This document shows, in pieces, positions 1,290 to 53,115 of a stretch of DNA of 64,000 nucleotides. The position numbers and the translations under genes are program-made. Source of the stretch: Methylobacterium organophilum (GTDB lineage: Bacteria; Pseudomonadota; Alphaproteobacteria; Rhizobiales; Beijerinckiaceae); contig NZ_BPQV01000003.1 of assembly GCF_022179465.1 (NCBI RefSeq), positions 310,001 to 374,000 of the forward strand, given 5' to 3'. The notes below the pieces were generated by a model, which made no database searches, was not told the DNA's origin, and saw nothing but the letters and a program-made list of their open reading frames with translations. Numbering within the stretch: the stretch's first letter is position 1; the number at the start of each line of letters is the position of its first letter.

Positions 1290-3149
1290 TTAGAGCGGGC
1301 GCGCATGCGTCCTGGGAATGCGGCGCCGGAGGTCCCGCGGTACATCCTCCCGGGACCACACCGTCGTGACCTTACGGCCGGCGGTCGCGAAAACCGGCTT
1401 GATGCCGGCCCGGTCGAGGGCTTCCCGCACCCACCGAATGCCGGATCCGATGTCCCTGGCGAGGGCCCCCGTGGTTGCGTACTCGCTCTCGAAGGCCGCC
1501 AACGCATCCTCCGGGACGAGGATCTCCCCGCATGCGGTCGCGGTCCCGGTCAGCAGGCCTTGCCGGACGATCAGGCCGACGACGTCGGACGGCACCGTGA
1601 TGCGCCGGCCGACCTCTGCGAGGGTGAGGCCGCCGCCCCCGCGGGACCGGCGCGCGGCCCTGATGTCCTCCGGGTCGAGGAGGAACCCCGCGAGGCCGGG
1701 CGCGTCCCGCAGGACCGCCCTGACCCGGAGCTGTCCGGCCAAGATCATGGCGCAGGTGCCGCGCACGCCGTCGACCTTGCCGTGCTGGCTGGCGCGCGCG
1801 AGCGGCAGGAGGCCGGCGGGAGCGGCCTCGACGGTCGGCGCTGGGCCGCGGAGTCGGGCCAGCACGGCGTCGATGGCACCCCGGTCGAATACCTCGGCCT
1901 TGATGCCGGCGCGACGATGGATCTCGGCTGGCGGGACGATGCGGGCGGCCACCAGCATCCTGGCCTGTCGCTTGGCCAGCCCGAGCGCGGCGGGCAGGTC
2001 GTCCGCGCGGACCGCACGGTCGAGGAGCGCGCGGATCTCGGCGGCGGTCTCGCGGGTGATGCCGATGGGCGTGCCCCGCTTGGTCCGTTCCGGCCACGCA
2101 CCCAGGGCCTTGACGTAGCCGGCGACGAACTCCGGCCGGCGCCCGCACTGGGCCGCGATCTCGGCGAGGCTGACCAGGGGGACATCGGCATGCCGGATCA
2201 CCACCGAGGTCTTGTGGACCGGACCCCGTGCCGCGTGATGCGCGAAGAGGATCGCCCGCACCGCGTCACCGCTCCCTCCCGCCGGCAGTCGCTTCGCCCA
2301 CAGGTACAGGTAGCCATAGACCTGTTCGGCGCCCCAGGCCCCGAGGCCGACATGGTCGGCTCCGGCCATCCCGTCGAGCAGGGCCTCGAAGGCGCGCGGC
2401 CAGTCCCGCGCGATGGCGAGGCCGGCCGAAAGCACCTCGGGATGGCGTTCCGCCGGAAACTTCGACAAGGCCCCGTCGGCGCCCCCGTGCCGGGCGACGC
2501 CCAGCCGCTCCATGGCGTCGCAAGCCTCTGCGAGCGTCAGCCCGTCGAGAATGGGGACCTCCGTCCTCGGCATGCCGCCGAGGCGGCCGACCACGTAGGC
2601 GTCCGCCAGGGTCGTGCCGGGCGCGACCTCGACGCCCTCGCAGGCCAGCAGGGGGTGGCCGTTCCTGCACCGGGTCAGCGAGCCGGCTTCCCAGGTGACG
2701 TCCACGCCGCAGGTCGGGCAAGCCGCGGCCAGCAGGACGTGATGCACCGGGCAGGTGCGGACGGCAGCCACGTCCCACCAGAAGCGCCGGTGAACGTTCC
2801 AATGGGCGTGACGTCCGGACCGCGGCCGGCGGAGGTCGTCGTCCCAGCAGCGCGGGCACCAGCGACGCGCGTTCGTCGTCCAGTCGTCCCGGTGGATCTC
2901 CTCGCCGGCGATCACGACCCTCCGCTTGGTGACCTCCGCCGGGGTCCATCGCAGGAAGGGCTCACCGTCACGGCCGAGCCGGTCCGCGAGGGGCTTGGCG
3001 GCGCGCCCCTGCAGGATGTCGCTCAAGGCATGGCCGGCGCTCCTCAGGCGTTCCCGGCTCCACGGCTCGCCATTGACGTCGAAGGCGCGCAGCAGGTGCG
3101 CCGCTGCGGATTCGCCCTCGACGACGGGCGGGATGATGGTCAGTCGCAC
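1290..3149 (-). CDS. tniQ: TniQ/TnsD-family target-selection protein
   Basis: 619 residues, GTG start preceded by GGAGG at 6 nt. The N-terminal 200 residues are a TniQ domain: 'IIPPVVEGESAAAHLLR' at the start, then zinc-binding pairs 'CPRC', 'CPVHHVLLAAACPTC' and 'CRNGH'. The rest is helical and probably holds DNA-binding helix-turn-helix units ('LTLAEVGRRITV' near residue 490 looks like one). In Tn7-like systems TniQ/TnsD recognises the target site or bridges to a targeting complex and recruits the TnsC ATPase. The length is closer to TnsD than to the short TniQ of CRISPR-associated elements. It starts 10 bp after tnsC and is the last gene of the operon. Target unknown. Confidence 0.85.
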   Translation of the reverse strand: MRLTIIPPVVEGESAAAHLLRAFDVNGEPWSRERLRSAGHALSDILQGRAAKPLADRLGRDGEPFLRWTPAEVTKRRVVIAGEEIHRDDWTTNARRWCPRCWDDDLRRPRSGRHAHWNVHRRFWWDVAAVRTCPVHHVLLAAACPTCGVDVTWEAGSLTRCRNGHPLLACEGVEVAPGTTLADAYVVGRLGGMPRTEVPILDGLTLAEACDAMERLGVARHGGADGALSKFPAERHPEVLSAGLAIARDWPRAFEALLDGMAGADHVGLGAWGAEQVYGYLYLWAKRLPAGGSGDAVRAILFAHHAARGPVHKTSVVIRHADVPLVSLAEIAAQCGRRPEFVAGYVKALGAWPERTKRGTPIGITRETAAEIRALLDRAVRADDLPAALGLAKRQARMLVAARIVPPAEIHRRAGIKAEVFDRGAIDAVLARLRGPAPTVEAAPAGLLPLARASQHGKVDGVRGTCAMILAGQLRVRAVLRDAPGLAGFLLDPEDIRAARRSRGGGGLTLAEVGRRITVPSDVVGLIVRQGLLTGTATACGEILVPEDALAAFESEYATTGALARDIGSGIRWVREALDRAGIKPVFATAGRKVTTVWSREDVPRDLRRRIPRTHARPL

Positions 3150-3159
3150 CGACGTCCTC

Positions 3160-4281
3160 CTACGCGTCGTCCGGGTCGATGTCCGCTTGCGCGGTTCCCA
3201 TCAGTCGGGTGAGCTTGTCGAACTCGATCTCCTTCAGCTTCGGGCAGGTCGAGATGTCGGGCACCCTGAACGGGTTCCGGTGAGGGCCGAGCTCGAAGAT
3301 CTCGTCGAAGACGAATGCTAGGTGGTCGAGTTGGCTGATGCTCGGCGCGCCGCTTCGGATGGCGCGGAAGGCCGCCTTCTTGACGAGGTGCATCATCCGG
3401 CCGGTGTATCCCGCCGATGCCTTGAGCATGCGCTGGACCATGTCGTGCTCGGACAGGCCGGAGGGGGCCGGGAAGCCGAGCCGCGGCTCGATCAGCTCCA
3501 GGAACTTCGTCGCCTTCTTCACACAGGCCGCCGAGTGGCCGAGTGGCCTGATGGGCATGAAGATGCAGCGTCGGAGCAACTGGAAGTCCTCCTTGAGCAC
3601 CCGCCTCAGCCACGGCATGCCGGAGAGCACGAGCGAGATGGGGCGCATCTCCGCCCCCGGCGGCCGCAGGGGGTCGTTCGGGTCCGGGAGGACGAGGTTC
3701 TTCAGCGTCTCGACCAAGGCCCGCCGCTCGTCGCCGGTGCGCCCGCGGAGGGCGTGGTGGAATTCATCGACCATGACGACCGACACGAGTTGGGCGTGCA
3801 TCTGGTGGCGGACCCTGCGCCAGATGTCGTGCTCCTTCAGGGTGGCGCTGAGTTCCAGATCGGTCAGGGCGACGTACAGCGCGAGCCCCAGCGTCTTCAG
3901 GGTGCAGGGGCTGGGCGCCTTGATGAACACCAGCGGGCGCACGGGGCCGACCTCGTCACGGAACGGCACCAGGGACGGGCGCATCTGCAGCCGGGCGAGC
4001 AGATGCGACTTCCCGGCCCCGGAAGGAGCCGGAACGACAAGGCACTGGCCCTCGACGTCGTCGGCGAGGTCGGCCAGCATCTGGTCGAAGCGCGCGACCG
4101 CCTTGACGACGACGTCCGTGTTCACGTGGATCGTGTTCACGCGTCTCTTCCAGGCGCGCCGCTCCAGATCCTGGGGGCTCAGACGGGTGGCGAACCGCTC
4201 CCGGCGCGCGGGAACGGCCTCCTGCGGGGCGAGGACCGTGACGTCGGGGCGGAAGATGTCCGCTTCGTGGGCTTGCAGCAT
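3160..4281 (-). CDS. tnsC: TnsC/TniB-type AAA+ transposition ATPase
   Basis: 373 residues from the ATG at 4281, chosen because GAGG lies 8 nt upstream; an ATG at 4326 is possible but overlaps tnsB by 35 bp. Walker A is 'APSGAGKSH' (about residues 80-88 from this start) and Walker B is 'VVMVDEFHH'. A later 'LVLSGMPWLRR' fits sensor I of the TniB/TnsC group. The protein should form an ATP-dependent filament on target DNA, linking TniQ to the TnsA-TnsB transposase. It lies between tnsB and tniQ with short spacing, the usual Tn7/Tn5053-like order. Confidence 0.85.
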   Translation of the reverse strand: MLQAHEADIFRPDVTVLAPQEAVPARRERFATRLSPQDLERRAWKRRVNTIHVNTDVVVKAVARFDQMLADLADDVEGQCLVVPAPSGAGKSHLLARLQMRPSLVPFRDEVGPVRPLVFIKAPSPCTLKTLGLALYVALTDLELSATLKEHDIWRRVRHQMHAQLVSVVMVDEFHHALRGRTGDERRALVETLKNLVLPDPNDPLRPPGAEMRPISLVLSGMPWLRRVLKEDFQLLRRCIFMPIRPLGHSAACVKKATKFLELIEPRLGFPAPSGLSEHDMVQRMLKASAGYTGRMMHLVKKAAFRAIRSGAPSISQLDHLAFVFDEIFELGPHRNPFRVPDISTCPKLKEIEFDKLTRLMGTAQADIDPDDA

Positions 4282-4291
4282 GCGATGGTCC

Positions 4292-6538
4292 TCACTCGGC
4301 AGTCCAGTTATCGGGATCGTCTGCATCGAACCCGATGTCGTCGGCCGCCGCCGCCGGCATGGTCGCCGCCGGCACGGTCGCCGCCGCGGTGACGGGCGGT
4401 GATCGTGCCGGCTCGGCGGCGACCGAGTCGTCCTGCGCCGCGCGGACCGGGCGCCCGCCGGTCTTGCGGCCCCCCTGCCCGATGCGGGGCGCAGGCGCCG
4501 CCTGGCCGTCGGCCGCGGCCGACGGCGCGGCCTTCCTCGGGCGCCGGGTCCGCAGCCGCTCGGCCTCGTGGGCGTTCTCGTCAGCGACGTCCCAGGCCAC
4601 CTCGAACATCGGGTCGTCCGCGTGCTCGCGGAACCAGTCGACGTCGGTGCTGGCCAACCGCTGCGGCTTGACGCCGGCCTTGCGGCATTCGGCGCGAAGC
4701 AGCTCCATCGCGCGGACGAGGGTCGCGCGTGCGACGCGCTGGCCCTCCAGCGTCATGCGACGCGCCGTCCGGACCACGTCGCGCCACTCGGCAAGGGAGG
4801 TGCCGTCCGCCAAGGCGTCGTCGCAGGGAACCCTGATCCACCCGGCCTCCTCGTCCACCAGGACGAGGAGGTGGCCGAGATCGGACGCATCGACCTTGAC
4901 GAGGAACTCCTCGCCGAAGTGGAAGCCTTTCCTGCGGCGGACGCCCTTCAGCTCGTCCGACTGGAAGGTGAGCCCGAGGAAGGTGATCCCGTGCCGCTGG
5001 ATGGTCCTCGGGACCACGAGCGCGATGAGCGGGTCGAGGTCGTCGGCCGACGGCGGCAGGCGCGTGCCGTAGCCGATCAGGTCCTGCCAGCGCTGCAGGG
5101 GCGTGCGTCCCAGCAGCCCGCCATGCTTGCGGTTGTGATAGATGTCGACGACCCAGATCGTGAAGAATTCGATGAGCTGGGCGAGGGTCAGGGCGGCTTG
5201 CCCGACGCTGTCGTAGTCGCCCCGCTCGCGCACGTCCCGGAAGGTCCGGCCCGGCAGGTAGGCGCAGAAGTCGCGCGCGATCGTGCCGAGGGCCCGCTCG
5301 ACCTTGCCCTTCAGGTGGGGCTTGCGCCGGGGCATGTAGCGAAGCTCGAACCGCAGCTGCCCGGCGGCCGCCTTCATCGAGCGGGAGTGGAATTCCCGTC
5401 CGTTGTCGAGCTTGACCACCTCCGGCACGCCGAACACGGGCCAGGACGTCTCGACGCGGACGCGGGTCAGGTCCTTCGGCAGCACCGCCATGCGCAGGCA
5501 ATGCATCACCGAGGTCCAGGAGGGGCGCTCTTCGCTGAGATGGAACCCGACGATCATCCGGGTGGCCGCACAGATGGCGACCGTGAGCCAGACGCGCTTG
5601 GTGCGCTTGTCCTTCCGACGCCGGTTCCGCGCCGGGGTGCCGTCGCCTTCCAGAACCAGCACGTCGAGCGGCGTGTGGTCGATCTCGACGATTTCGAGCG
5701 GCCGCGTCGCCTGAGGAGCCTTCTTGACGTGCCGGAAGGCCTGCTCCGCCTCCGCGGGGCCCTGGCGGTGATAGATCTCGTCGAACCGACTGACGTTCGC
5801 CTTCACCCAGCGCCGGATGGTCATGGCGTCGGGCACATCGAGGGGCACGGCGCGCGTCTTGTTCTCGCGCTCGACCCGGCCCTGGATGAACAGGATGACG
5901 TGGCTGAGGGGGGGGCCGTTCCGGATGAGCCAGTCCTCGCGCACCCGCTCGGCGAGGATCACCTCGACTTCCGGGTCGAGGCGGAAACCCGCCCGCCCCT
6001 TCTGGTCGTGCAACGGGATCAGCGCCGCGAGGGCCCTGCCCCCCTTGCGCCAGCGCCCGTACCAACCCTTCAGCGAGGACCCGCTCACCCGTTCGAGCGG
6101 CACGTCGTCGGGATGGGAGCCCTCGTTCTCGATGACCCGTTGCCGACGCTCCGCCGCGACGAGCTTCGCGATCTCGGCGTAGCCCTTCAGGACCTTCTTG
6201 TGGGTCCGCTCGGCGAAGCACCGGTCGCAGGCCTGCATGTAGTCGAGGCGCATCAGCGCCGCGTCCTGCTGGCGGACATCGAACGTGTCGATGGTGCGGA
6301 GGAGGTTGTCCTGGACGCCTTGGGGCAGGCCCGCGGTCGTGTCCTCCACCAGTTGAAGGCGCCTCGGCTCGCCGAAGTAGAGGTCGGCCAGCTCGGCATG
6401 GCTCTTCGTGACCGAGACCGGCCTCGCCCCGAGCGTGCGCAGGGTGACGCCGCTCGCGTCGCGCGAGAGCACCTTGTGGTAGACGCCCTCGACGATGACG
6501 AGGGCGCCCTCCTGCAGGCGGATCTGGCAAGCGCCCAT
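4292..6538 (-). CDS. tnsB: TnsB/TniA-type DDE transposase (active copy)
   Basis: 748 residues from the ATG at 6538, five bases after the stop of the preceding small gene. Residues 1-60 form an N-terminal domain beginning 'MGACQIRLQEGALVIVEG'. Helical DNA-binding regions follow, then the RNase H-like core: first Asp in 'EIDHTPLD', second in 'KLDNGREF', and Glu in 'LKGKVERAL', with exactly 35 residues between the second Asp and the Glu (DD35E). 'GLLGRTPLQRW' and a beta-barrel-like region follow. The last 120 residues are Ala/Pro/Arg-rich and probably hold the TnsC-contacting tail. TnsB binds element ends and makes and joins the 3' strand cuts. The active site looks intact. Confidence 0.9.
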   Translation of the reverse strand: MGACQIRLQEGALVIVEGVYHKVLSRDASGVTLRTLGARPVSVTKSHAELADLYFGEPRRLQLVEDTTAGLPQGVQDNLLRTIDTFDVRQQDAALMRLDYMQACDRCFAERTHKKVLKGYAEIAKLVAAERRQRVIENEGSHPDDVPLERVSGSSLKGWYGRWRKGGRALAALIPLHDQKGRAGFRLDPEVEVILAERVREDWLIRNGPPLSHVILFIQGRVERENKTRAVPLDVPDAMTIRRWVKANVSRFDEIYHRQGPAEAEQAFRHVKKAPQATRPLEIVEIDHTPLDVLVLEGDGTPARNRRRKDKRTKRVWLTVAICAATRMIVGFHLSEERPSWTSVMHCLRMAVLPKDLTRVRVETSWPVFGVPEVVKLDNGREFHSRSMKAAAGQLRFELRYMPRRKPHLKGKVERALGTIARDFCAYLPGRTFRDVRERGDYDSVGQAALTLAQLIEFFTIWVVDIYHNRKHGGLLGRTPLQRWQDLIGYGTRLPPSADDLDPLIALVVPRTIQRHGITFLGLTFQSDELKGVRRRKGFHFGEEFLVKVDASDLGHLLVLVDEEAGWIRVPCDDALADGTSLAEWRDVVRTARRMTLEGQRVARATLVRAMELLRAECRKAGVKPQRLASTDVDWFREHADDPMFEVAWDVADENAHEAERLRTRRPRKAAPSAAADGQAAPAPRIGQGGRKTGGRPVRAAQDDSVAAEPARSPPVTAAATVPAATMPAAAADDIGFDADDPDNWTAE

Positions 6539-6540
6539 GT

Positions 6541-6753
6541 TCAACGCCGCCCCCTCCCGGGCTCGGACACGCGCAGCCGCCCGCTGCGGCAAAGGTCCAG
6601 CATCGCGGCCTCGCTCAGGAAAAGCGTGACGGGATCGGGCCCGAGCCGGCGCAAGAGGACGCCGGCCGCGGCGCGCGCGATGGCGTGGGGGATCCCGTCG
6701 ACGAGCGCGACCGCGCCGCGGTGCGTGCGGATCTGAGACCGATCTCCTGTCAT
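6541..6753 (-). CDS. free-standing copy of the TnsB N-terminal domain
   Basis: 70 residues, ATG with GGAGGT 6 nt upstream, so it is probably translated. The whole protein aligns with residues 1-60 of the adjacent TnsB. 'SQIRTHRGAVALVDGIPH' matches 'CQIRLQEGALVIVEGVYH', 'GVLLRRLGPDPV' matches 'GVTLRTLGARPV', and 'LDLCRSGRLRV' matches 'ADLYFGEPRRLQL'. It is therefore a duplicated domain without the integrase core. The degenerate integrase at 7444-8607 lacks just this domain, so the two may be parts of one split second TnsB copy. It sits between tnsA and tnsB. A structural or regulatory role in the transpososome is a guess. Confidence 0.75.
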   Translation of the reverse strand: MTGDRSQIRTHRGAVALVDGIPHAIARAAAGVLLRRLGPDPVTLFLSEAAMLDLCRSGRLRVSEPGRGRR

Positions 6754-6757
6754 GGGG

Positions 6758-7444
6758 CTACCTCCGGCTCGGGGAACGGCGGACAAGGGCGTGGTCGTCG
6801 AACGGTCGGCCGGGTTCGGTGAGCTCGGCTTCCCCGCGCGCGACCAGGGCGACGACGGCCCGGAAGGCGCGGGTCCCGAGGCCCGAGGCCGCTCGGAGCT
6901 CCCGGACGCGGGCCTCGCCGCCGAAGCGGTCCAGGACGACGCGGATGGTGTGCTGCTCCGCCTCGTCGACGACGAAGCTTCGCTCGCTCGCGACGAGCGC
7001 CGCGTTCGCGACCCGGAGCGCGTCGATCTCGACCTCGGTCCAGAGCTCGAAGCCGTAGTAGCCGGCCGCGATGGCGCCCGCCGCCAAGCGGGGCCGGATC
7101 TCGTCCCAGCCGAGCCTGATCACCCGCTTCAGCGGCTTGACCTCGACGCAGAGGCGCCGCCCGTCGTCGATCTCGACGGCGAAGTCCGGCGTGTAGGTGT
7201 GCCACCGGACGCCGTCGTGCCACCGGAACGGGACGGGCTCCTCCTGGTAGCGCAGGACGGCGTCGTCCTGCTCCAGGAGGAGGATGAAATCCCGCGCGAG
7301 GAGGCCCTCGTAGGCCACCATGCGGTGGCCCATGCCCGGCTTGCCGGAGGGGATCTCGCCCGTGATGCAGTCCCGCCGTCCGGTGACGATCCGGCGGGAC
7401 GGATTCGGCTTGCCGACATGCCGGCTTCGCAGGGTCCGGGACAT
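6758..7444 (-). CDS. tnsA: TnsA-type endonuclease of a Tn7-like transposon
   Basis: 228 residues. The start is the ATG at 7444, whose bases overlap the stop of the upstream gene (TGATG), implying translational coupling. The N-terminal part carries the restriction-endonuclease-like core: Glu in 'MVAYEGLLARDF', Asp in 'YTPDFAVEI', and 'CVEVKPLKR' supplying the Lys. 'QEEPVPFRW' between them is typical of TnsA. The C-terminal 90 residues resemble the winged-helix half that contacts TnsC. TnsA cuts the 5' strands so that, with TnsB, the element moves by cut-and-paste. Its presence separates this locus from Tn5053/Tn402-type elements, which lack it. Confidence 0.85.
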   Translation of the reverse strand: MSRTLRSRHVGKPNPSRRIVTGRRDCITGEIPSGKPGMGHRMVAYEGLLARDFILLLEQDDAVLRYQEEPVPFRWHDGVRWHTYTPDFAVEIDDGRRLCVEVKPLKRVIRLGWDEIRPRLAAGAIAAGYYGFELWTEVEIDALRVANAALVASERSFVVDEAEQHTIRVVLDRFGGEARVRELRAASGLGTRAFRAVVALVARGEAELTEPGRPFDDHALVRRSPSRR

Positions 7445-8607
7445 CAGGCCCCTGCCCCGGCGCCGGGCATCCGCGCGGGCGCGGCCGCCGCCCCCAGGCG
7501 GATTGGATACCGCGTCACCCCCTCCTGCCAGCGGTCCAGCGGGGTCCGCCCGTCCCGGCGCGAGCGGCCGAGGTCGTGCTGGCTGAGCCAATCCTGCACC
7601 GCGGCCATCAGGCCGTCGGCCGTCGCCACCGCGGCCCCGGTCGCGGCGAGCCATTGCCCCAGGCCCGCCGCCGGCGCGGCCCCGCCCGCGGAGGCCGCCG
7701 GGCCGAAGCGCAGCTCGATCCCGAGCGCCGCCGCGGACCGCAGGACCGATTCGCTGCGGAACCGGGGGGCGTGGTCGAGCAGGAGGGCGTCCGGGAGACC
7801 GAGGCAGAGGCGGGCGACGCCGAGCGGCTCCGGCGTGGCTGCGGCCGGCCGGGCACCGAAGAGCCCGAGGACGGCGTCGCCGTCGGGCTCCGTCGTGGAG
7901 AGCCTCGCCGCGACCGTCACGCCGCTGTAGGCGTCCCGCGCGGTCAGCAGGTGGACGCGATCCGTGTCGAGTTCCGGCAGCGCGATGTCGAGGGTCTCCT
8001 CGCCGACGACCACCTCGCCCAAGGGGTGCCCGCTCGACATGTGCAGGAACCGGAAGACCTGCCGGGCGGGCGCCGCGGATCCGCGCGCCGGCGGCCGCAT
8101 GCGGGCGCGGATCATCCGGCGAAGGGTGCCGGGCGCCGGCACCTGGTCGGGCGCGCACCCGCGGGCCAGGGCCTCTTCCCGGCACCGCTGCAGCGCCGCC
8201 TGCGTCAACAGGGAGAGCGAGGGCGCCGGCCGCAGGCGGGCCTGGGCGGCGGCCTCGTCGGCCACGGACCCGATCCAGGCGGCCCAGCGGGGCCGGGCCG
8301 GCACGGACCGCCGCCGGTCGGCGAGCGCGGCCACCTGCCCGCCGCTCGTGCGGAGCAGCCGCTGCCACCGCCTGACCTGCCGCAGCGACGGCCACTTGAC
8401 GTCGTCCACCTCACGGCCGACCGCCGCGAAGGCGGCCGGCACGGCATCGGCGCCGCACGCGCCGGCCGGCAGGCCTTCCAGGGCCTGCACATAGGCCAGG
8501 CGCCGTCCGGCGCGGGCGCGCTGCGCCTCCGTCAGCTCCGAGAGGGCCGGCGGATCCGCCGGGGCGAGGGAGTCGCTCTGGACGGGAAAAAGTTCGAGCT
8601 GCGTCAT
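7444..8607 (-). CDS. degenerate TnsB/integrase paralogue without DDE residues
   Basis: 387 residues, first of the transposition operon and coupled to tnsA. It aligns along its length with TnsB of the same operon minus the N-terminal domain. Helical part: 'WPSLRQVRRW' and 'APGTLRRMIRA'. Core: 'VVGEETLDIAL' (about 200-210) replaces 'EIDHTPLDVLV', 'LLDHAPRF' (277-283) replaces 'KLDNGREF', and 'GGAAPAAGLGQ' (308-318) replaces 'LKGKVERALG'. 'GRTPLDRW' near residue 353 matches 'GRTPLQRW'. Only the second Asp survives; the first Asp and the Glu are gone, so no strand-transfer chemistry is expected. The frame is intact and composition is coding-like, which argues for a retained non-catalytic role, for example end binding or complex assembly. 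Confidence 0.7.
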   Translation of the reverse strand: MTQLELFPVQSDSLAPADPPALSELTEAQRARAGRRLAYVQALEGLPAGACGADAVPAAFAAVGREVDDVKWPSLRQVRRWQRLLRTSGGQVAALADRRRSVPARPRWAAWIGSVADEAAAQARLRPAPSLSLLTQAALQRCREEALARGCAPDQVPAPGTLRRMIRARMRPPARGSAAPARQVFRFLHMSSGHPLGEVVVGEETLDIALPELDTDRVHLLTARDAYSGVTVAARLSTTEPDGDAVLGLFGARPAAATPEPLGVARLCLGLPDALLLDHAPRFRSESVLRSAAALGIELRFGPAASAGGAAPAAGLGQWLAATGAAVATADGLMAAVQDWLSQHDLGRSRRDGRTPLDRWQEGVTRYPIRLGAAAAPARMPGAGAGA

Positions 8608-8698: not shown

Positions 8699-8851
8699 CT
8701 AGTCCTCGGGCGCCTGGTCGTCCCAGGCCTCGGGCGTGAACTTGCCGGTGGGGTGGCCGAGAAGGAGGCCGAGGTCGTCGTCCCACGCGTCGAAGGCGGG
8801 ATCGACGAAGCGGTCGCCGGCGGGCGGCTCGCCGCCGTACTGATCGGTCAA
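8699..8851 (-). CDS. short acidic protein, TTG start
   Basis: 50 residues read from a TTG preceded by AGGAG at 7 nt; no ATG is available. The sequence is very acidic with repeated Asp ('DAWDDDLGLLLGH', 'EAWDDQAPED') and ends in TAG at 8699, 92 bp before the transposition operon. No family is recognised. The strong ribosome site and coherent composition suggest it is expressed, possibly as a leader gene of the operon. A chance open frame cannot be excluded at this length. Confidence 0.45.
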   Translation of the reverse strand: MTDQYGGEPPAGDRFVDPAFDAWDDDLGLLLGHPTGKFTPEAWDDQAPED

Positions 8852-9310: not shown

Positions 9311-9808
9311 TTACTCGGTTTCGCCCTGAGACGGCTGCGCCCGGAACTGGCCGAGCGCGTACCACATCTTCGCCTTCCGGTCGTGGATTATTTTCCCATC
9401 GCGCTTAAGCTTGGTCTTGGACTTCTCCGAGGCGTCGAGCTGGTAGCCGGCTTTCCGGACGACCTCGTTCACCTCGGCGCCGGACATCCCCCGGGGGCCC
9501 GCCTTCGCCAACGCCGTGACGATCACCTTCGCGACCGGGCCGGTGACCGCGGGCAGTTGCAGGGGCTCCGCCCCCGGCCGATCCGCATCCGCGGCCGCCC
9601 GCGGGAGGGCCACGGCCGGCGCGAGGCCGGAGCGCTCCAACGTGCCGATCAGGTGGTCGATGCCGGCCAGTTCGGTGGCGATCTCGCGAAGCTTCGCGGC
9701 ACCGGCCAGCATCGCCGACCGCACGGCTTCGTGCATCTCCGCCTCGGCCTGCCGGGCCTGCTCGCGCAGCCTCTCCCGCGCCTGTTGCAGTTCGGTGAGC
9801 ACGACCAT
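9311..9808 (-). CDS. coiled-coil protein with C-terminal winged-helix-like domain
   Basis: 165 residues from the ATG at 9808, which has GGGGG just upstream; a TTG three codons earlier is less likely. Residues 1-65 are a charged coiled coil ('ELQQARERLREQARQAEAE', then a second helix up to 'HLIGTLERS'). A short Ala/Pro linker follows. The last 75 residues ('VAKVIVTALAKAGPRGMSG', 'EVNEVVRKAGYQLDAS', 'KLKRDGKIIHDRKAKMWY') look like a winged helix that would bind nucleic acid. Proteins of this design are common on accessory DNA of methylobacteria. Function unknown; a DNA-binding structural or regulatory role is inferred. Confidence 0.6.
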   Translation of the reverse strand: MVVLTELQQARERLREQARQAEAEMHEAVRSAMLAGAAKLREIATELAGIDHLIGTLERSGLAPAVALPRAAADADRPGAEPLQLPAVTGPVAKVIVTALAKAGPRGMSGAEVNEVVRKAGYQLDASEKSKTKLKRDGKIIHDRKAKMWYALGQFRAQPSQGETE

Positions 9809-10060
9809 CCCCCACAAGGCCCGCGGGCGGTCGCGCCCAGGCCGATTTTGAAATCCTACCCGGTCGCGGACCCCGTGGCAACCGGGTGAGACCCGGCCGC
9901 AAGGCGCCTGGTTAACGGGGTCCTGCCTGACCGACCCTGCTTCCGGCCGGGTGGCTTCCCGTCCGGACCGGCCGCGCAGACCTGGCCGGGCGCGCCCGCG
10001 GGCGGCGAGCCCGGGCCGGGCGTGCCGGCGCGCTCCGGCCGTTGGCCGGGTGACTCGGCG

Positions 10061-11437
10061 TCACCCCGCCCGGTAGGCCGCGGCCGGACCGACCGGCTCG
10101 CGCGACATGAAGGGCTGCCCCCTGCCCTCCGCCCAGGCGAAGCCAAGCGCGGCCAGCGCCGCCGTCAGCTGCGCGTCGTCGGCGGGAGCGATCCGCAGCC
10201 CGGCCCCCTCCGCGTCCGCGATCGCGACGAGCCGCTCCAGGAAGCCTGGGCGCGGCGCCCGCCCGGCCAGGCCGCCTACGACCAGGTCCCCCTCCCCCGA
10301 CAGGCCCAGCGGCAGGTCCGGCAGGTCGTCCCCCCGGGTCAGCCGGCGCATGACCCGGTGCGCGGCGGTGTCGAGCTCGGCCGGGACCGAGGCGTCCAGC
10401 AGGGTGTCGGCCGCCGCGTCGGAGACCCGCGCCGCGCCGCCGCCCGGCAGGACCGCCGCGACGGACAGCTCGATCCCGCCGGCCCGGAGGTCGAAGCGGG
10501 CCGACAGGACGAGGCGGACAGCGGTGCGCGTCACGGTGATCGCCACCGCCCCGTCGAGTCCCTCGCCCGCGGCGTAGGACGCCGGACCCACCGCCAGTCC
10601 CCGATGCCGGCGCAGCAGGCGACCCAGGGCGGGGCCGAGCTCCGCGTCGACGATGTCCCGCGCGAGCGCGTCGGCGAGGCGCCGCCGCCAAGCCGGGCCG
10701 TCGCGGTCGCTCCTCCGGGCGCCGGGGGCCGGCAGCGCCCGGAGGACCGCGGCGGCGTGGCGGAAGCGCTGCCCGGCACTCGCGCCCAGCGCCTCTCGGT
10801 AGAGCGCATCCGCGACGGCCTCGACCAGCGGCGGCAGCCCCTTGGCCAGGGCCGCCCGCAGCCGCCGGCCGGCCGAGGCGGCCTGCGCCGCCCGGCTTGC
10901 CTCGCCGGCATCCGCCATCAGCGCCGCGGCCTGCCGCGCCTCCGGCGCGACCGTGAACGCGAGCGCCTCCAGCTCGTCGGAGGCCCGGAGGACCGCCGGC
11001 AGGCAATCGAGGAAGCGGAGGGCGCGCTCGACATGCGCGCGGGCGGAGGCGCCATCCTCGGGGATCCAGCGGGCGGCCCTGAGCAGGGCATCCCGCACCT
11101 GCGCGTGATCCGCCGGCGCGAAGGCCCCGGGGAGCGCGCGCAGGAGCGCGCGGTCGGCCGCCGCGCGCGACCGCGCCAGGGGGAGGACGATCCCGTCGTC
11201 CCAGACCTGCCGGAGATCCTTCCGGATCGCCCGCCTCAGGGCCGCGATCCGGGTCGCCCGGATGCCGCCGGCCACGAACGCCGCGTGCAGGTTCTCCATC
11301 GTCGCGTCGACCGTGTGCCGGGTGGCCGGGTGCGAGAGCGTCGCGATGGTTCGCCACGCCGTCGCGAGCTCTCCCGCGTCCGTTTGCGTGGGGCTGCTTC
11401 CGGCGCGGGAGGCCGGGACGACGGGAGCGGGGTGCAT
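10061..11437 (-). CDS. hypothetical protein, mostly helical, Ala/Arg-rich
   Basis: 458 residues from the ATG at 11437. No signal peptide, membrane span or recognised motif. The first half is helical with many Ala, Leu and Arg ('RALRFLDCLPAVLRASDE'). The last 200 residues look more mixed, with beta strands ('AVAITVTRTAVRLVLSARF', 'IELSVAAVLPGG') and a C-terminal 'RIAPADDAQLTAALAALGF'. It follows two unknown genes and a ParA-like gene on the same strand, so these may share the promoter at 12993-13021. I do not recognise a family. Confidence 0.55.
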   Translation of the reverse strand: MHPAPVVPASRAGSSPTQTDAGELATAWRTIATLSHPATRHTVDATMENLHAAFVAGGIRATRIAALRRAIRKDLRQVWDDGIVLPLARSRAAADRALLRALPGAFAPADHAQVRDALLRAARWIPEDGASARAHVERALRFLDCLPAVLRASDELEALAFTVAPEARQAAALMADAGEASRAAQAASAGRRLRAALAKGLPPLVEAVADALYREALGASAGQRFRHAAAVLRALPAPGARRSDRDGPAWRRRLADALARDIVDAELGPALGRLLRRHRGLAVGPASYAAGEGLDGAVAITVTRTAVRLVLSARFDLRAGGIELSVAAVLPGGGAARVSDAAADTLLDASVPAELDTAAHRVMRRLTRGDDLPDLPLGLSGEGDLVVGGLAGRAPRPGFLERLVAIADAEGAGLRIAPADDAQLTAALAALGFAWAEGRGQPFMSREPVGPAAAYRAG

Positions 11438-12099: not shown

Positions 12100-12936
12100 T
12101 CACCGAGCCCCCGGCATCGCCGCGCAGGGCTGGCAGGCGGCGGGGCGTCGGCCGGGAACGCGGGGTCCGGGCCTGCGGCGCCTCGGCGGCGGCGCGCGGC
12201 GGGGCGCCCGCGCCGCTCGGGAGCCGTCGCCGCCGAGGCGCGCGAAGCTCTCGGCGAGGTCCCTGAGGCGCTCGGCGGTGGCCTGGTCCGCGGGGGAGCC
12301 GGCGGGGCTGAGCGCCTCCCCGAGGGCCGCGGCGTCGAGCCGCTGCGCGTCCGGGTCGGCCGCCGCGGCCTCCAGGACGGCCATGAGCAGGGTGCCCGAC
12401 CGCAGCAGGCTGGCGGCCGGCGTGCCGGCCGCGAGGGCGGCGAGGTCCGCGCGACCGGGCGGGGCGAGGCGGACCGGGAGCGTCCGCAGCCTGCCTTCGA
12501 GGCGCCGGCATCCGGAGAGCGCGGCGGACCAGGGCAGCAGCCAGGGGGGCGGCGGGCGCCGGCCGGCCGGGGCGGCCGCGTGCGCGACGGCCCGCAGGGC
12601 CCGGGCGGCGTGGAGCGGGCTCATGCCCGTCACGACCGCCACGCCGAGGCGGGCGCGGACCCGGTCCTCGTCCAGCGCGGCGAGCGGCAGCACGAGGAAG
12701 ACCTCGGACCCGCCCGCCAGGGCTGCCGCCGCGCGGTCGAGCAGGCCCTGGAGCTGCGCCGCCGCGCCGTGGGCGACCAGGGCGGGCGGGCGCCGGCCGG
12801 CCGGCGCGGCCGGGCCGGGCGCGTGCCCGGGGTAGGCCAGGACGGTGGCCGGGCGCTCGACGCGCGCGAGGGCGGCGGCGGCCAGCAACGCCGCGTGGTA
12901 TCCGGACGCATCGTCCGCGAAGAACCCATAGACCAT
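12100..12936 (-). CDS. ParA-like protein lacking a P-loop (copy 1)
   Basis: 278 residues, ATG with AAAGGA 7 nt upstream. It begins 'MVYGFFADDASGYHAALL', where ParA/MinD proteins have their nucleotide-binding loop, but there is no Gly-Lys-Thr/Ser. It is clearly paralogous to the protein at 35200-36240. Shared blocks are the N-terminal 'FFADD'/'FFGAD' strand, 'LGVAVVTGMSPLHAA' against 'LDAAVLPVGPTPLDE', a PPWLL/APVWLL strand, a long Ala-rich helix region, and 'ERLRDLAESFARLGG' against 'ERLRDLAEALEAIEE'. The last 40 residues are Pro/Arg-rich. The ParA-like fold is inferred from these strands; it cannot be a classical partition ATPase. The promoter with a dyad lies 57 bp upstream. Confidence 0.6.
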   Translation of the reverse strand: MVYGFFADDASGYHAALLAAAALARVERPATVLAYPGHAPGPAAPAGRRPPALVAHGAAAQLQGLLDRAAAALAGGSEVFLVLPLAALDEDRVRARLGVAVVTGMSPLHAARALRAVAHAAAPAGRRPPPPWLLPWSAALSGCRRLEGRLRTLPVRLAPPGRADLAALAAGTPAASLLRSGTLLMAVLEAAAADPDAQRLDAAALGEALSPAGSPADQATAERLRDLAESFARLGGDGSRAARAPRRAPPPRRRRPGPRVPGRRPAACQPCAAMPGAR

Positions 12937-29125: not shown

Positions 29126-32100
29126 TCACTCGGCCGCCTGCCGGAGCCGCGCCCGCGCGCCGGCCGAAGCCTCCTCGGCCCGGCGCGGGGAGCGCGCGAC
29201 CTCCTCGCCGCCGAAGCGCGCGTACAGGGCCGGCAGGACGACCAGGGTCAGCAAGGTGGCGCTGATCAGGCCGCCGATGACCACGGTCGCGAGCGGCCGC
29301 TGCACCTCGGCTCCGGTCTCGGTCGCGAGCGCCATCGGCACGAACCCGAGCGAGGCGACCAGCGCCGTCATCGCCACCGGCCGCAGCCGGGTCATGGCGC
29401 CCTCCAGGATCGCCTCGCGCCGCGGCCGCCCTTCCGCGACGAGCTGCTTGATGAAGGTCAGCATCACCAAGCCGTTCAGGACCGCCACGCCCGAGAGCGC
29501 GATGAAGCCCACCGCCGCCGGCACCGAGAACGGCATGCCCCGCAGCCACAGGGCCGCGATGCCGCCGGTCAGCGCCAGCGGCACGGCGCTGAACACCAGC
29601 AGCGCGTCCCGGGGCGAGCCCAGCGCCGAGTAGAGCAGCAGGAAGATCAGGGCGAAGCAGACCGGCACCACGATCATCAGGCGCTTGCGGGCCGAGGCGA
29701 GGTTCTCGAACTGGCCGCCCCAGGTCACGTCGTAGCCCGAGGGCAGCCGCACCTGGCTCGCGACCTTGGCCTGCGCCTCGGCGACGAGCGAGCCGATGTC
29801 GCGCCCGCGGACGTTCGCGGTCACGACCACCCGGCGCCGGCCGTTCTCGCGCGAGACCTGGTTCGGCCCTTCCGCGACGGAAAAACTCGCGACCTGCTTC
29901 AGGAGGACCGACGCGGCGCGCCCGTTCGGGCCGGGCGGCAGCGGCACCGGGATGTTCTCCAACGCCTCCCGGTTCTCGCGCACCTTGTCGCTGAGGCGCA
30001 CGACGATGGGAAAGCGGCGGTCGCCCTCGAACACCAGCCCGGCGTCCTTGCCGCCGATGGCCGCCCCGATGACCTCCTGGACGGCGCCGGTGCTGAGCCC
30101 CAGCCGCGCCGCTTCCGCCTTGTTGATCTTGATCTCCAGGAAGGGCAGGCCCGCCGTCTGCTCGACCTTGACGTCCTCGGCCCCGTCGATGCCCCGCAGG
30201 ATCTCGGCGATCTGGTCGGCCGCCTTCGTCATCGGCCCGAACTCCTCGCCGAACACCTTCACGGCGAGGTCGCCGCGGGCGCCCGCCAGCAGCTCGTTGA
30301 AGCGCAGCTGGATCGGCTGGGAGAACTCGAACACGTTCCCGGCCAGGGCGCCGACCGCCTTCTCGATCTTCTCCTGGAGCTCGGCCTTGGACAGGTCCGG
30401 GTCCGGCCACTCCTCCTGGGGCTTCAGGATCACGAAGGTGTCCGAGGAGTTCTGCGGCATCGGGTCGGACGCGACCTCGGCGGTGCCGGTCTTCGAGAAG
30501 ACGTAGGCGACCTGCGGGAAGCGGCGGATCGCCTGCTCGATCTTGAGCTGCATCGCCTGCGACTGCGACAGCGAAGTCGAGGGGATGCGCAGCGCGTTCA
30601 TGGCGATGCTCTTCTCGTCGAGCGTCGGGATGAACTCGGCGCCGAGCCGGGTGAAGAGCAGGCCGGCCCCGGCCAGCAGCAGCAACGCCGCGACGATGAA
30701 CACCATCGGCGCCCGCACCGCCCCGGCCAGCACGGGCCGATAGGCCCATTTGAGGGCGCGGATGATGACATTGTCCTTCTCGGTGACGCGCCCGGTGATC
30801 ACGATGGCGATCAGGGCCGGCACGAAGGTCAGCGACAGGACGAAGGCGGCGGCCAGCGCGATGATCACGGTCAGCGCCATCGGCTCGAACATCTTGCCCT
30901 CGACGCCCGTGAAGGTGAGGAGCGGCACGTAGACGAGGATGATGATCGCCTGCCCGTAGAGGGACGGCTTGATCATCTCCTCGGCCGAGGCCCGCACCGT
31001 GGCGAGGCGCTCCTCGGTGTCGAGGGTGCGACCGAGACCGTGCTGCTTCTCGGCGAGATGACGCAGGGCGTTCTCGGTGATGATGACCGCCCCGTCGACG
31101 ATGAGGCCGAAGTCGAGGGCGCCGAGGCTCATCAGGTTGGCCGAGATTTTCGCCTCGACCATGCCGGTCATGGTCATCAGCATGGCGACGGGGATGACCA
31201 GCGCCGTGATGATGGCGGCCCGGATGTTGCCGAGCAGCAGGAACAGGATGACGATGACGAGGGCCGCGCCCTCCGCGAGGTTCTTGGCCACGGTCCTGAT
31301 GGTGGCCTCGACCAGGAGCGTCCGGTTGAGGACCGTCTGGACCTCGACGCCGGGCGGAAGCGACTTGCGGATCTCCGTCATCTTGGCGTCGACCGCGGCC
31401 GCGACCGTGCGGCTGTTCTCGCCGATCAGCATCAGCGCGGTGCCGACGACGACCTCCTGCCCGTCCTCGCTGGCCGAGCCCGTGCGCAGGTCGCGCCCGA
31501 TCCGGACCTCGGCGATGTCCTTGATCCGCACCGGCACGCCGCCGCGGGTGGTGACGAGGACGTTCTCGATCTCCCCCATGCTCTCCAGGCGCCCGGCCGC
31601 GCGCACGACGTAGCCCTCGCCGTTGTCCTCCAGGTAGCGGGCGCCCTGGTTGGCGTTGTTGGCCTCCAAGGCCCGCGCCACGTCGGAGAAGGAGAGGTCG
31701 AGGGCGGTGAGCTTCGTCGGGTCCGGCTGGACGTGGTACTGCTTCTCGAAGCCGCCGATGCCGTCGACGCCGGCCACGCCCGGCACGGTCTTGATCTGGG
31801 GCCGGATGATCCAGTCCTGCACCGTGCGCAGGTACGCGGCCCGCTCCAGCTCCGTCCTGAGCCGCTGGCCTTCCGGGGTCAGGTAGCTGCCGTCCGGTTG
31901 CCAGCCCGGCTTGCCCGCAGGCGACACCGTCCGCTCGTCCGGCTTCGCGTAGTGGATCGACCACATGTAGATCTCGCCGAGGCCCGTCGAGATCGGGCCC
32001 ATGCGGGGCTCGGCGTCGGGCGGCAGGTCCTGCTTGACCTGGGACAGGCGCTCGGCGACCTGCTGGCGGGCGAAGTAGATGTCGAGCTTCTCCGCGAAGA

Positions 32101-32386
32101 CCGCGGTGACCTGCGAGAAGCCATTTCGCGATAAGGACCGGGTGTATTCGAGGCCCTTGATCCCGGCGAGCGCGGTCTCGACCGGGTAGGTGACCTGCTT
32201 CTCGATGTCGATTGGCGAGAGCGAGGGCGCGACCGTGTTGATCTGCACCTGGTTGTTGGTGATGTCGGGGACCGCGTCGATGGGCAGCTTGGTCAGGGCG
32301 TAGCCGCCGAAGCCGGCGGCCAGCAGCGACAGCAGCAGCACCAGCCAGCGCTGGTGGACCGAGAAGTCGAGGATGCGGGAGATCAT
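29126..32386 (-). CDS. czcA: HME-type RND heavy-metal efflux pump (CzcA/CusA family)
   Basis: 1086 residues, full RND length. Starts 'MISRILDFSVHQRWLVLLLS', with the first transmembrane helix and 'LPIDAVPDITNNQVQINT', which is diagnostic for the heavy-metal RND subfamily. The proton-relay helix 'SLGALDFGLIVDGAVII' is present. Twelve helices and two large periplasmic loops fit the family. It exports divalent or monovalent metal ions (Zn/Co/Cd/Ni or Cu/Ag) from periplasm or cytoplasm through a MFP and a TolC-type channel. The membrane fusion protein gene ends 14 bp upstream. No outer membrane partner is adjacent; the TolC-type protein at 23589 is a candidate. Metal specificity cannot be fixed from sequence alone. 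Confidence 0.92.
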   Translation of the reverse strand: MISRILDFSVHQRWLVLLLSLLAAGFGGYALTKLPIDAVPDITNNQVQINTVAPSLSPIDIEKQVTYPVETALAGIKGLEYTRSLSRNGFSQVTAVFAEKLDIYFARQQVAERLSQVKQDLPPDAEPRMGPISTGLGEIYMWSIHYAKPDERTVSPAGKPGWQPDGSYLTPEGQRLRTELERAAYLRTVQDWIIRPQIKTVPGVAGVDGIGGFEKQYHVQPDPTKLTALDLSFSDVARALEANNANQGARYLEDNGEGYVVRAAGRLESMGEIENVLVTTRGGVPVRIKDIAEVRIGRDLRTGSASEDGQEVVVGTALMLIGENSRTVAAAVDAKMTEIRKSLPPGVEVQTVLNRTLLVEATIRTVAKNLAEGAALVIVILFLLLGNIRAAIITALVIPVAMLMTMTGMVEAKISANLMSLGALDFGLIVDGAVIITENALRHLAEKQHGLGRTLDTEERLATVRASAEEMIKPSLYGQAIIILVYVPLLTFTGVEGKMFEPMALTVIIALAAAFVLSLTFVPALIAIVITGRVTEKDNVIIRALKWAYRPVLAGAVRAPMVFIVAALLLLAGAGLLFTRLGAEFIPTLDEKSIAMNALRIPSTSLSQSQAMQLKIEQAIRRFPQVAYVFSKTGTAEVASDPMPQNSSDTFVILKPQEEWPDPDLSKAELQEKIEKAVGALAGNVFEFSQPIQLRFNELLAGARGDLAVKVFGEEFGPMTKAADQIAEILRGIDGAEDVKVEQTAGLPFLEIKINKAEAARLGLSTGAVQEVIGAAIGGKDAGLVFEGDRRFPIVVRLSDKVRENREALENIPVPLPPGPNGRAASVLLKQVASFSVAEGPNQVSRENGRRRVVVTANVRGRDIGSLVAEAQAKVASQVRLPSGYDVTWGGQFENLASARKRLMIVVPVCFALIFLLLYSALGSPRDALLVFSAVPLALTGGIAALWLRGMPFSVPAAVGFIALSGVAVLNGLVMLTFIKQLVAEGRPRREAILEGAMTRLRPVAMTALVASLGFVPMALATETGAEVQRPLATVVIGGLISATLLTLVVLPALYARFGGEEVARSPRRAEEASAGARARLRQAAE

Positions 32387-32400
32387 GGGCGGGCTCTCGC

Positions 32401-33750
32401 TCAGTCGTTGTCGCCGGTCGCGGCCTTGCCGAGCTCAGCCTTGAGGAGGAAGGAGTTGGCGACCGCGATCTCGTCGCCCGGCCTCAGGCCCGAGACGACC
32501 TCGTAAGCATCGTCGTCGGAGCGCCCGAGCTCGATCTCGCGCTTCTCGAAACCGGTGGCCGTGCGCACGAAGACGACCTTCTCGCCGGCGACGGTCTGGA
32601 TCGCGGCCTTCGGAACCCGCACCTTGACCGCATCCTGGCCGACCTCGACCTCGGCGGTGACGAAGGTTCCGGGCCGCCAGGCCATGTCCCGGTTCGGCAG
32701 CCCGACGATGACGCGGGCGGAGCGTGTGTCCGGGTTCAGGATCGGGCTGACGAAGATCACCTTGCCTTCGGCCTGCTTGTCGGCGTCGCCCTGGCTCGGG
32801 GTGACCAGGACCCGCGCGCCTTCCTTGACCTTGGCCAGTTCGGTGGTTGGCACCGCCAGTTCGATCCAGACGGTGGACAGGTCTGCGACCGTATACAGGT
32901 CGTCCGGGTCGCCCTGACCGCCGACGTCGGTGCCGAGGTCGACCTTGCGCTCAACCACGCGCCCGCTCAGCGGTGAGCGCAATTCGTAGCGGCGCAGCGT
33001 CGAGGTGTTGGGCGTGGTCTCGTCCCGTTTGGCCGCGCTCGCCACCTCGGCGGCGTTGAGGCCGAGGGCGGAGAGCTTCTGCCGGGCGAGGTCGACGCGA
33101 AGCTGCGCCTCCGAATAGACGGCCTTGGCATTGAGGAAGGCCGATTCGGCCGAGATGCGCTTTTCCCAAAGCGCCTGCTGCCGATCGAAATTGGTCTTCT
33201 CAAGCTCTGCCTTCACTGAGGCGGTGAGATACTCGCTCTTGGCGTCCGCGACCTCGCGGCTGTCGAGCACCGCGACGACCTCACCCTTCACAACCTCCTC
33301 GCCCAGGCGCTTGCGCATCTCGGCCACAATCCCGACCACGCGCGCGGGCACCCGGGCGATCCGGTCGGCGTCCGGCGCGATGGTGCCGGGAACGAGAAGG
33401 TGGCGCGCGAGCGTGCCCCCCTCCACCGTCACGACCGTGATGTCCTGCCCGGAAACCTGCTCGGGCTGCATCTTGATCACGGTCGGCTCGGCCTCTCCCC
33501 CACCCTCCCCGTGCGGATGCTTGGCGGTCGCAGGCCCGGTCTCCGGCTTCGCCCCTCGCGGGCGGGGATGCTCGCCCGCGGGCTCCGGGACGTCGGTCTC
33601 GGAGGAGGGCTGACCGGCGGCGGGCGCCGGGTGGATCCTCGGGACCCCGACCGAGGCGAGGGCGTCCTGGACGAATTCGGACACGCGGGGAACGGCACCG
33701 CCGATGGCGATGCCGGTGGCCAGGATGACCACGGACAGGAGAATGCGCAT
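32401..33750 (-). CDS. czcB: RND membrane fusion protein (CzcB family)
   Basis: 449 residues from the ATG at 33750. N-terminal anchor or signal 'MRILLSVVILATGIAIGG', then a low-complexity part with 'KHPHGEGGGEAEP', a possible metal-binding stretch. The adaptor core follows: barrel-sandwich 'GTIAPDADRIARVPARVVG', lipoyl-like 'VVKGEVVAVLDSREVAD', a helical hairpin 'KTNFDRQQALWEKRI', then 'RYELRSPLSGRVVERKVDLG' and 'GQGDPDDLYTVADLSTVWIE', typical of CzcB. It links the RND pump to the outer membrane channel. Lies 134 bp downstream of the small Cys-rich gene at 33885. Confidence 0.9.
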   Translation of the reverse strand: MRILLSVVILATGIAIGGAVPRVSEFVQDALASVGVPRIHPAPAAGQPSSETDVPEPAGEHPRPRGAKPETGPATAKHPHGEGGGEAEPTVIKMQPEQVSGQDITVVTVEGGTLARHLLVPGTIAPDADRIARVPARVVGIVAEMRKRLGEEVVKGEVVAVLDSREVADAKSEYLTASVKAELEKTNFDRQQALWEKRISAESAFLNAKAVYSEAQLRVDLARQKLSALGLNAAEVASAAKRDETTPNTSTLRRYELRSPLSGRVVERKVDLGTDVGGQGDPDDLYTVADLSTVWIELAVPTTELAKVKEGARVLVTPSQGDADKQAEGKVIFVSPILNPDTRSARVIVGLPNRDMAWRPGTFVTAEVEVGQDAVKVRVPKAAIQTVAGEKVVFVRTATGFEKREIELGRSDDDAYEVVSGLRPGDEIAVANSFLLKAELGKAATGDND

Positions 33751-33884
33751 TGAGCCTGACTCGACCGGGACGCCGCTTGCCCGCCTGCGCGGCGGTGACG
33801 GTCGATCCCGCATGTTCACGTAAGGTGATCGACTGGCCCGGCGGATCGCCGGGCGGCCCGTGCCACCTCGGTGGCGCGGTCACC

Positions 33885-35110: not shown

Positions 35111-35199
35111 TCCATTCGATTTCAGACGAGACGGTTTCGTGGCTGTCGGTGGACTTGGTGTCCGCGGACGGCTTCGGGCGTGCATGCTGGGGGTCTGCC

Positions 35200-36240
35200 A
35201 TGATCGCTGCGTTCTTCGGTGCCGACGGACGTTCCGTGAGTGCCCATGCTGTCCTCGTGGCGACGCTCGCCGCCGCCGCCGGGCGGCCGGCGACGCTGGC
35301 GCGGATCACCCGGCCGGCCGAGCCGCGGCTGCCTCGCGGCACGAGGTTGCCGGACGCCGTCCGCGTTGTCGAGCTTCAGGCCGCCTCGGCCGAGGCGGCG
35401 GTGCAGGCCGCCTGCGAGGCCGCGACGGCCCGGGACCGCGAAGGCTGGCTGATCCTCGACCTGCCCGCCGAGTGCCTCGCCGCGCCGTCCCTGCGCGCGC
35501 ATCTCGACGCGGCCGTTCTGCCGGTCGGCCCCACGCCGCTCGACGAACACTTCGCGGCCGCCGTGCTGGGCGACCCGCGCCTCGTGCCCCCCGTTCAGGC
35601 CGGGCCCCCGGCCCCGGTCTGGCTGCTCGGCTGCGGCCGCTCCGGCGGCGAGCCCGCCGTGGCGCGCTTCGAGCGCTCGATGCGCGCGGCGGTCCGAACC
35701 GGCGCTCCCGACGCGGCCGATGCGATCCGGGCCTTGCCGGTCGCGCTGCCGCGCCTCGGCCCGTCCGACGCCGCCGGCCTCGTCGTGGGCACCCTCACGT
35801 CCCGGCTCCTCTGCCAGGGCCTCCACCTCATCGCCGCCATCGAGGCCGCCGCCCGGCACCCCTCCGCCGCCCCGTTGCGACGGCAGGACCTGGCCGAGAG
35901 CCTCGGCCCGGCGCCGTCCGCCGGCGGCGGCGCGGACCACCGCGACACGGGCGAGCGCCTCCGCGACCTCGCCGAGGCGCTGGAGGCCATCGAAGAGGGC
36001 GCGGGGCCGTCGCCGCAGGACCTGGCGGACGCGCCCCTGCTGGAGGATTGGGACGTCGGGCTCCGGGCCGTGAGGGCCTTGACCGGCGTCGTCTCGGGGC
36101 ACCCCGACTTCCCCCGGCCGTGCCGGATCAGGACCTCCGAGGTCTACGCCTCGGACGGGCGGACCTGGGTCCGGACCTATTCCCGCTGGTACAGGCTCGG
36201 GAGAGCGGTCGGCGACACGGCGCCCACGACCCTGCAATAG
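35200..36240 (+). CDS. ParA-like protein lacking a P-loop (copy 2)
   Basis: 346 residues from the ATG at 35200, with GGGGG 7 nt upstream. The front 'MIAAFFGADGRSVSAHAVLV' stands where ParA proteins have their Walker A motif, but the Lys and Gly pattern is missing. 'EGWLILDLPAECLAA' and 'LDAAVLPVGPTPLDEHFAAA' look like the Walker B strand and the following strand of ParA/MinD folds. It is paralogous to 12100-12936 over most of its length. A C-terminal extension ('RIRTSEVYASDGRTWVRTY') is unique to this copy. Cytoplasmic, function unknown; classical ATPase-driven partition is unlikely. Confidence 0.65.
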   Translation: MIAAFFGADGRSVSAHAVLVATLAAAAGRPATLARITRPAEPRLPRGTRLPDAVRVVELQAASAEAAVQAACEAATARDREGWLILDLPAECLAAPSLRAHLDAAVLPVGPTPLDEHFAAAVLGDPRLVPPVQAGPPAPVWLLGCGRSGGEPAVARFERSMRAAVRTGAPDAADAIRALPVALPRLGPSDAAGLVVGTLTSRLLCQGLHLIAAIEAAARHPSAAPLRRQDLAESLGPAPSAGGGADHRDTGERLRDLAEALEAIEEGAGPSPQDLADAPLLEDWDVGLRAVRALTGVVSGHPDFPRPCRIRTSEVYASDGRTWVRTYSRWYRLGRAVGDTAPTTLQ

Positions 36241-52846: not shown

Positions 52847-53115
52847 GATCTCAGCTTCCGTGTGTGTTCGTCCGCGCCGCGGCACTCGGATGCCGCCGGA
52901 CGCGTGGAGGTGTTGAACCGATCGGGCTTGATCCCGGCTGAGCTGCCCAGGACGAGGATTGGCGGGACCGGGACACCGTCGGCCCCGGTGGCCCCGGCCG
53001 CGAGACCGCCCGATCCTGGGACGGCCACCGGGATGGGCGTCGCGCGCCAGGGCGCGGCCGGGCAGGCGCCGGCTCGAAGGAGATGGCGGTCGCCAGAATG
53101 ATGTCCCGGGCCTCG

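Follow-up and report, generated by a model that had tools for sequence, protein, structure and literature searches.

A Tn7-like transposition operon in a 64,000-nucleotide stretch of Methylobacterium organophilum DNA (the window, by which we mean the whole stretch that was analysed) carries an intact gene for a TnsB-like protein that lacks a complete catalytic site, which raises the question of what such an element would keep it for. Tn7-like transposases are under development for DNA insertion at chosen sites, and a natural, separate non-catalytic TnsB would reveal either the means by which these elements are held in check or the way in which a non-catalytic protomer can turn into an independent protein. 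In ShTnsB, catalytic and non-catalytic protomers are the same protein (PMC9527255), and their roles are hard to separate genetically; a separate dead gene would make the non-catalytic role directly testable. A literature search revealed no second or dead TnsB, and none is mentioned in the accessible parts of three Tn7 papers and reviews (PMC10293859, PMC8649781, PMC11406308); subscription papers lay mostly beyond the scope of the search, so a printed precedent is possible.

A catalytically dead TnsB-family protein coupled to tnsA

The gene in question (hereafter the dead gene) lies upstream of tnsA, tnsB, tnsC and tniQ, which stand in a single gene cluster as in Tn7-like elements, with all five genes on the same strand (Table 1). 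As the original prediction held, its frame is intact and coupled to tnsA: the stop codon overlaps the tnsA start through the sequence TGATG, an arrangement found at all 13 inspected junctions, one of which (G291) precedes only a tnsA remnant.

Table 1 Features of the operon, its neighbours and the short relative of the dead protein (positions are those of the window unless a locus is named)
Feature	Position	Strand	Description
tniQ	1290..3149	(-)	619 aa; Pfam TniQ 1.6e-9
tnsC (TniB-type AAA ATPase)	3160..4326	(-)	388 aa; Pfam TniB 7.7e-14, AAA_22 1.6e-16
tnsB	4292..6592	(-)	766 aa; DDE intact (D305, D396, E432)
tnsA	6758..7444	(-)	228 aa; Pfam Tn7_TnsA-like_N 1.1e-6
Gene for catalytically dead TnsB-family protein	7444..8607	(-)	387 aa; ATG start, no internal stop
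Small acidic ORF	8699..8851	(-)	50 aa; probable TTG start; immediately upstream of the dead gene
168-aa ORF	9311..9817	(-)	By eye, a coiled coil and a winged helix; conserved next to the dead gene
Conserved 458-aa core of 816-aa ORF	10061..11437	(-)	Conserved neighbour of the dead gene
Short dead-protein relative	L010 (G000:C1:28000-47000), 9315-10046		Also in L066, L067, L069, L070

The predicted homology to TnsB was confirmed by several lines of evidence. BLASTP alignment to the operon's own TnsB gave an E value of 1e-8 (as a single comparison) with 26% identity over residues 125-368, a separate alignment gave 30% identity across the aligned part, and PHROG 310 (transposase) matched at 5.5e-15. 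HMMs of the TnsB N-domain and the RNase H domain matched at 2.4e-12 and 4.4e-5 (4e-8 to 7e-15 and 1e-5 to 5e-4 in the orthologues), and a profile of six dead-type rows, built without any TnsB row, retrieved PseTnsAB (1.9e-7) and Tn6677 TnsB (5.3e-6) from the PDB sequences. The Pfam rve match was weak and under the Pfam cut-off (0.038), PADLOC returned a single weak match (0.023) that we disbelieve, and Rfam gave none. An AlphaFold2 model of moderate confidence (mean pLDDT 61.9; two of the five alignment rows were TnsB) had ShTnsB (2.2e-8), Tn7 TnsB (8.5e-6) and the MuA transposase of phage Mu (1.5e-5) as its best Foldseek matches, so that structure prediction, proposed as a check, returned the RNase H-like fold. 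MuA itself is catalytic and has further domains.

By HMMs, PDB profile and Foldseek, the dead protein thus combines TnsB-type helical domains with an RNase H-like fold, the helical N-terminal domains lying at about residues 20-180, the RNase H-like fold at about 190-345 and a conserved TPLDRWQEG segment at 355-363. This layout is shared with ShTnsB, Tn7 TnsB, PseTnsAB and Tn6677 TnsB, all of which have a TPLxRWQxG-like segment; unlike them, the dead protein is about half as long, forms a separate branch, and is without two of the three catalytic residues, the beta-barrel (middle) domain (the barrel HMM gave no match at E 0.05) and the C-terminal tail, since it stops 24 residues past TPLDRWQEG.

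Inspection of the DDE triad substantiated the predicted loss of two residues: the first Asp is replaced by Gly in the window and G291 and by Ala in the six G258-group orthologues, while all nine rows retain the second Asp and none has Glu at the Glu position. The site of the lost Glu is less sharply defined than first proposed, its column moving by a few residues from alignment to alignment, and in the G291 orthologue acidic residues lie near the site but outside the motif. TnsB proteins kept the complete triad in all 20 readable rows of 21 and also in L123, which was read in another alignment.

A probably older branch of the TnsB family

In a reduced tree of 24 rows, the dead proteins grouped with a second TnsB-family ORF of G258:C1 (support 94/95, not starred), and all 19 TnsB rows stood elsewhere. 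Union with the window-type TnsB in one clade, as expected for a recent copy of the neighbouring gene, was rejected (p-AU 0.005, with long branches and uneven composition), as were clades with the G291-type TnsB (0.0002) and the G258:C1 TnsB (0.0005). The proposed paralogy therefore stands as membership of the TnsB family and falls as descent from this operon's own TnsB. The dead protein is likely an older separate branch of that family, its age being inexact because branches are long and compositions uneven. In a tree that left out the TnsB of 32 further loci, the TnsB rows of the carriers fell into one nine-row group (support 86/89), which includes L115 and L123, both without a dead gene.

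Distribution in the genus

A first profile search of the genus matched 21 of 112 genomes at 1e-4, some weakly or only via TnsB. A search for TnsA in the same genomes yielded 56 places in 44 genomes, and the neighbourhood of each was inspected. When window-type cores were defined by a tnsA identity of at least 78% (13 loci), the dead gene was found in 12 of them, one, in G293 (the same contig as L008), being cut by a contig end; a search for homologues beside tnsA had been proposed as a check. Besides the window, the twelve carriers comprise five copies nearly identical to it and six G258-group loci, in which the dead protein is 49-52% and TnsA 83-85% identical to that of the window. The frame is unbroken in seven diverged orthologues of full length (48-52% identity), which all lack the same two catalytic residues and are not the stop-ridden sequences that would have spoken against a retained protein. 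Uninterrupted full-length frames thus occur in three diverged branches, namely the window, the G258 group and G291. The thirteenth window-type core (G264; tnsA 78%, tnsB 75%) has no dead gene in the 8.6 kb upstream of tnsA, and the gene is therefore probably dispensable.

Dead proteins of 99.7-100% identity are present in Methylorubrum zatmanii, M. podarium, M. rhodesianum and Methylobacterium hispanicum, and such near-identity across several named species points to a recent spread. The intact G291 orthologue (L064, G291:C6, 9557-11661), 48-50% identical to the other branches, is followed by 64 bases that appear to be left over from the start of a window-type tnsA (73%), then by a small piece of an RNase H domain (1.7e-3) and a different Tn7-like core with a TnsB of 32% identity, which is perhaps the result of a core swap. 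Samples of the family (199 genomes) and the order (397 genomes) confined dead-type matches to the genus of the window, apart from three weak order-level matches in G083 (falling in its TnsB), G557 and G553. The plasmid collection gave no match for the dead protein or its short relative, the viral contigs gave none, and no TnsB-derived gene was found upstream in the eight loci fetched from 17 class-level TnsB places outside the genus, two of which (L080 and L082) had no detected tnsA.

Loose selection on the frame

In five close pairs, NG86 dN/dS of the dead gene was 0.46-0.59 in four and 0.11 in the fifth, compared with 0.42-0.55 and once 0.06 for tnsA and 0.03-0.19 for tnsB; in distant pairs, values were 0.69-0.76 (four pairs), 0.41-0.48 and 0.19-0.20, respectively. 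Between the window and G258, 183 amino-acid changes were observed in the dead gene against 221 (sd 6.5) expected under neutral placement, in which the same base changes were put at random positions in 400 simulated runs. The ratio of observed to expected changes was 0.83 for the dead gene, 0.68 for tnsA and 0.50 for tnsB. The simulated dead genes acquired 3.1 stops on average and were stop-free in only 13 of the 400 runs. Close pairs gave ratios of 0.82, 0.85 and 0.32, with a deficit of about two sd or small in number. The shortage of amino-acid changes and the absence of stops therefore indicate a measurable but loose purifying selection on the frame, far weaker than on tnsB; the dN/dS comparison suggested with the original prediction speaks for some purifying selection and against a strong one, distant pairs lying at about 0.7.

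Comparison of the three branches gave identities of 52-65% for the RNase H region, 62-67% for the TPLDRWQEG region and 45-53% and 39-53% for the pair of helical regions; in two of the three comparisons, the RNase H region is more conserved than the helical domains. The window and the G258 group differ far more in the genes lying upstream of tnsA than in the tns genes, which could reflect fast evolution or an exchange of the upstream part.

Other second TnsB genes and remnants

Counting the twelve carriers and G291, a TnsB-derived gene or remnant was found upstream of tnsA at 21 of the 56 loci of the genus, and the domains kept differ. The other 35 showed none, the upstream sequence being short in some (L132, L135, L148). 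The second ORF of G258:C1 has 328 residues from its likely ATG and retains the second Asp and a Glu-like motif, and G294:C1 has a broken copy. Remnants of the N-terminal part in G224 and G212 were recognized by eye and lie under the HMM cut-off; that of G224 showed 31% identity over 84 residues and a profile score of 14.9, compared with at most 8.2 in 500 shuffles. In G209, G300:C48, G208 and G230, the upstream ORF matches only the TnsB barrel (3.7e-9 to 3e-5); these barrel-only ORFs (L120, L124, L156, L157) belong to a related group of Tn7-like elements. At L122 (G130:C44), a TnsB-type RNase H fragment (5724-6011, 1.6e-6) lies downstream of tnsA and just upstream of tnsB. A 261-residue ORF upstream of tnsA at the same locus, taken by eye for a TnsB helical part, was left uncounted, as the HMMs gave no confirmation.

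Short relatives of the dead protein without helical domains adjoin relatives of the 168- and 816-residue ORFs, with no tnsABC. Those of L010, L067, L069 and L070 have matching flanks and thus share a single chromosomal location across these four genomes, that of G209 lies at a different place, and that of G208 (L067) is frameshifted; they look like fixed remnants or domesticated pieces. At L065, an ORF similar to the ParA-like pair of the window described below stands near a short relative.

What the dead protein may do

Judged from sequence, end binding or regulation would be the best reading of the dead protein, and among regulators of TnsA and TnsB a transposition brake appears more likely than a structural subunit. 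We give a probability of about 0.45 to an old, truncated, non-catalytic TnsB-family protein that acts as a brake "made from a transposase". The model for this reading are truncated-transposase inhibitors such as Inh of Tn5, non-catalytic transposase relatives made by the element itself that lower transposition by blocking the ends or by pairing with the transposase. Inh arises from the transposase gene itself, whereas the dead gene is separate and diverged. The dead protein would be produced together with TnsA, and either its helical domains might bind DNA at the ends of the element or at the promoter of the operon itself, or its RNase H fold might pair with TnsB or TnsA, or both; because it cannot cut and lacks the later TnsB domains, it may repress transposition or set the balance of TnsA and TnsB. 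Against a brake stand the identity of 30% to the neighbouring TnsB, by which binding to the same sites is not a given, the weak selection, the G264 core without a dead gene, and a motif scan near the operon start that found no repeat resembling those of the element's end.

The dead protein could alternatively fill the non-catalytic places in a mixed, asymmetric TnsB transpososome and perhaps recruit TnsA, which we consider unlikely. The ShTnsB strand-transfer complex does contain two catalytic and two structural protomers, the latter with ordered oligomerization and middle domains and no visible N-terminal domains (PMC9527255), and both the coupling to tnsA and the better conserved RNase H region would suit such a subunit. 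However, the dead protein has the opposite domain set, with the helical domains unseen in these protomers and without the parts they contribute, which is why the brake is preferred, and the G264 core does without it; the originally suggested asymmetric transpososome is therefore a possible but not a favored arrangement. Similarly doubtful is a broader version with two kinds of TnsB, in which an active TnsB would work with a dedicated, dead and old second TnsB made with TnsA, present in the transpososome in an asymmetric or gating role, and cut to different shapes in related elements that keep other pieces (in some just the barrel, in others the helical and RNase H regions together with a Glu-like motif). 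No more probable is a relic, that is, a once-active second tnsB upstream of tnsA that decays at varied speeds, with intact frames as short-lived survivors: fast evolution in distant pairs, the broken G294:C1 copy, the remnants in G224 and G212, the frameshifted short form of G208 and the loss of different domains in different lineages would fit, but full-length uninterrupted frames in three branches at 48-52% identity, a significant deficit of amino-acid changes between them and the retained TGATG overlap argue against it. Least probable of all, and in our view very unlikely, is re-use in the choice of the insertion site, for which TnsF of Tn6022, an inactive tyrosine recombinase serving as target selector (Faure et al. 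2023, PMC10293859), provides the precedent. Both are dead recombination enzymes retained as accessories of a Tn7-like element, but they come from unrelated enzyme families, the dead protein matching RNase H-like TnsB in sequence and fold; moreover, a TniQ is already encoded by the element, and the three left flanks seen differ in sequence with no fixed site apparent.

The surrounding element

The dead gene travels with the small acidic ORF, the 168-residue ORF and the 458-residue core of the 816-residue ORF. ORFs similar to the small acidic one occupy the same place in other copies, and its selection signal is indistinguishable from neutral. None of the three matches a known family: the 168-residue ORF has no significant Pfam family, and a model of the 816-residue ORF core (pLDDT 69.4) gave only Foldseek E values of 0.56 or worse. 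A second (right) element end and a target duplication were not found by motif or by CCGCC duplication, and BLAST boundaries of the G258 group gave no recognizable end. One element end (TGTAATTCC... / TGTAATTCCTCAACGAAG..., C3:300855) was located, which carries repeats, is common to three different flanks and starts 10.4 kb past tniQ, beyond the window. The 43 kb that follow this end recur in another genome at 99.97% identity.

Several further features of the window were noted. A near-identical stretch in common with G236 breaks at about 39204 inside an apparent ORF, and one of the two copies is therefore rearranged. Two ORFs with similar starts, at 12100-12936 (-) and 35149-36240 (+), are ParA-like by eye, and the last part of the latter matches DUF6634. 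Metal-resistance-like genes are also present: an AcrB-family efflux pump and a membrane-fusion protein (29126-33819) lie inside the stretch common to other genomes, 51407-52885 encodes a pyridine nucleotide-disulphide oxidoreductase, mercuric-reductase-like by eye, and 61414-63876 a heavy-metal P-type ATPase.
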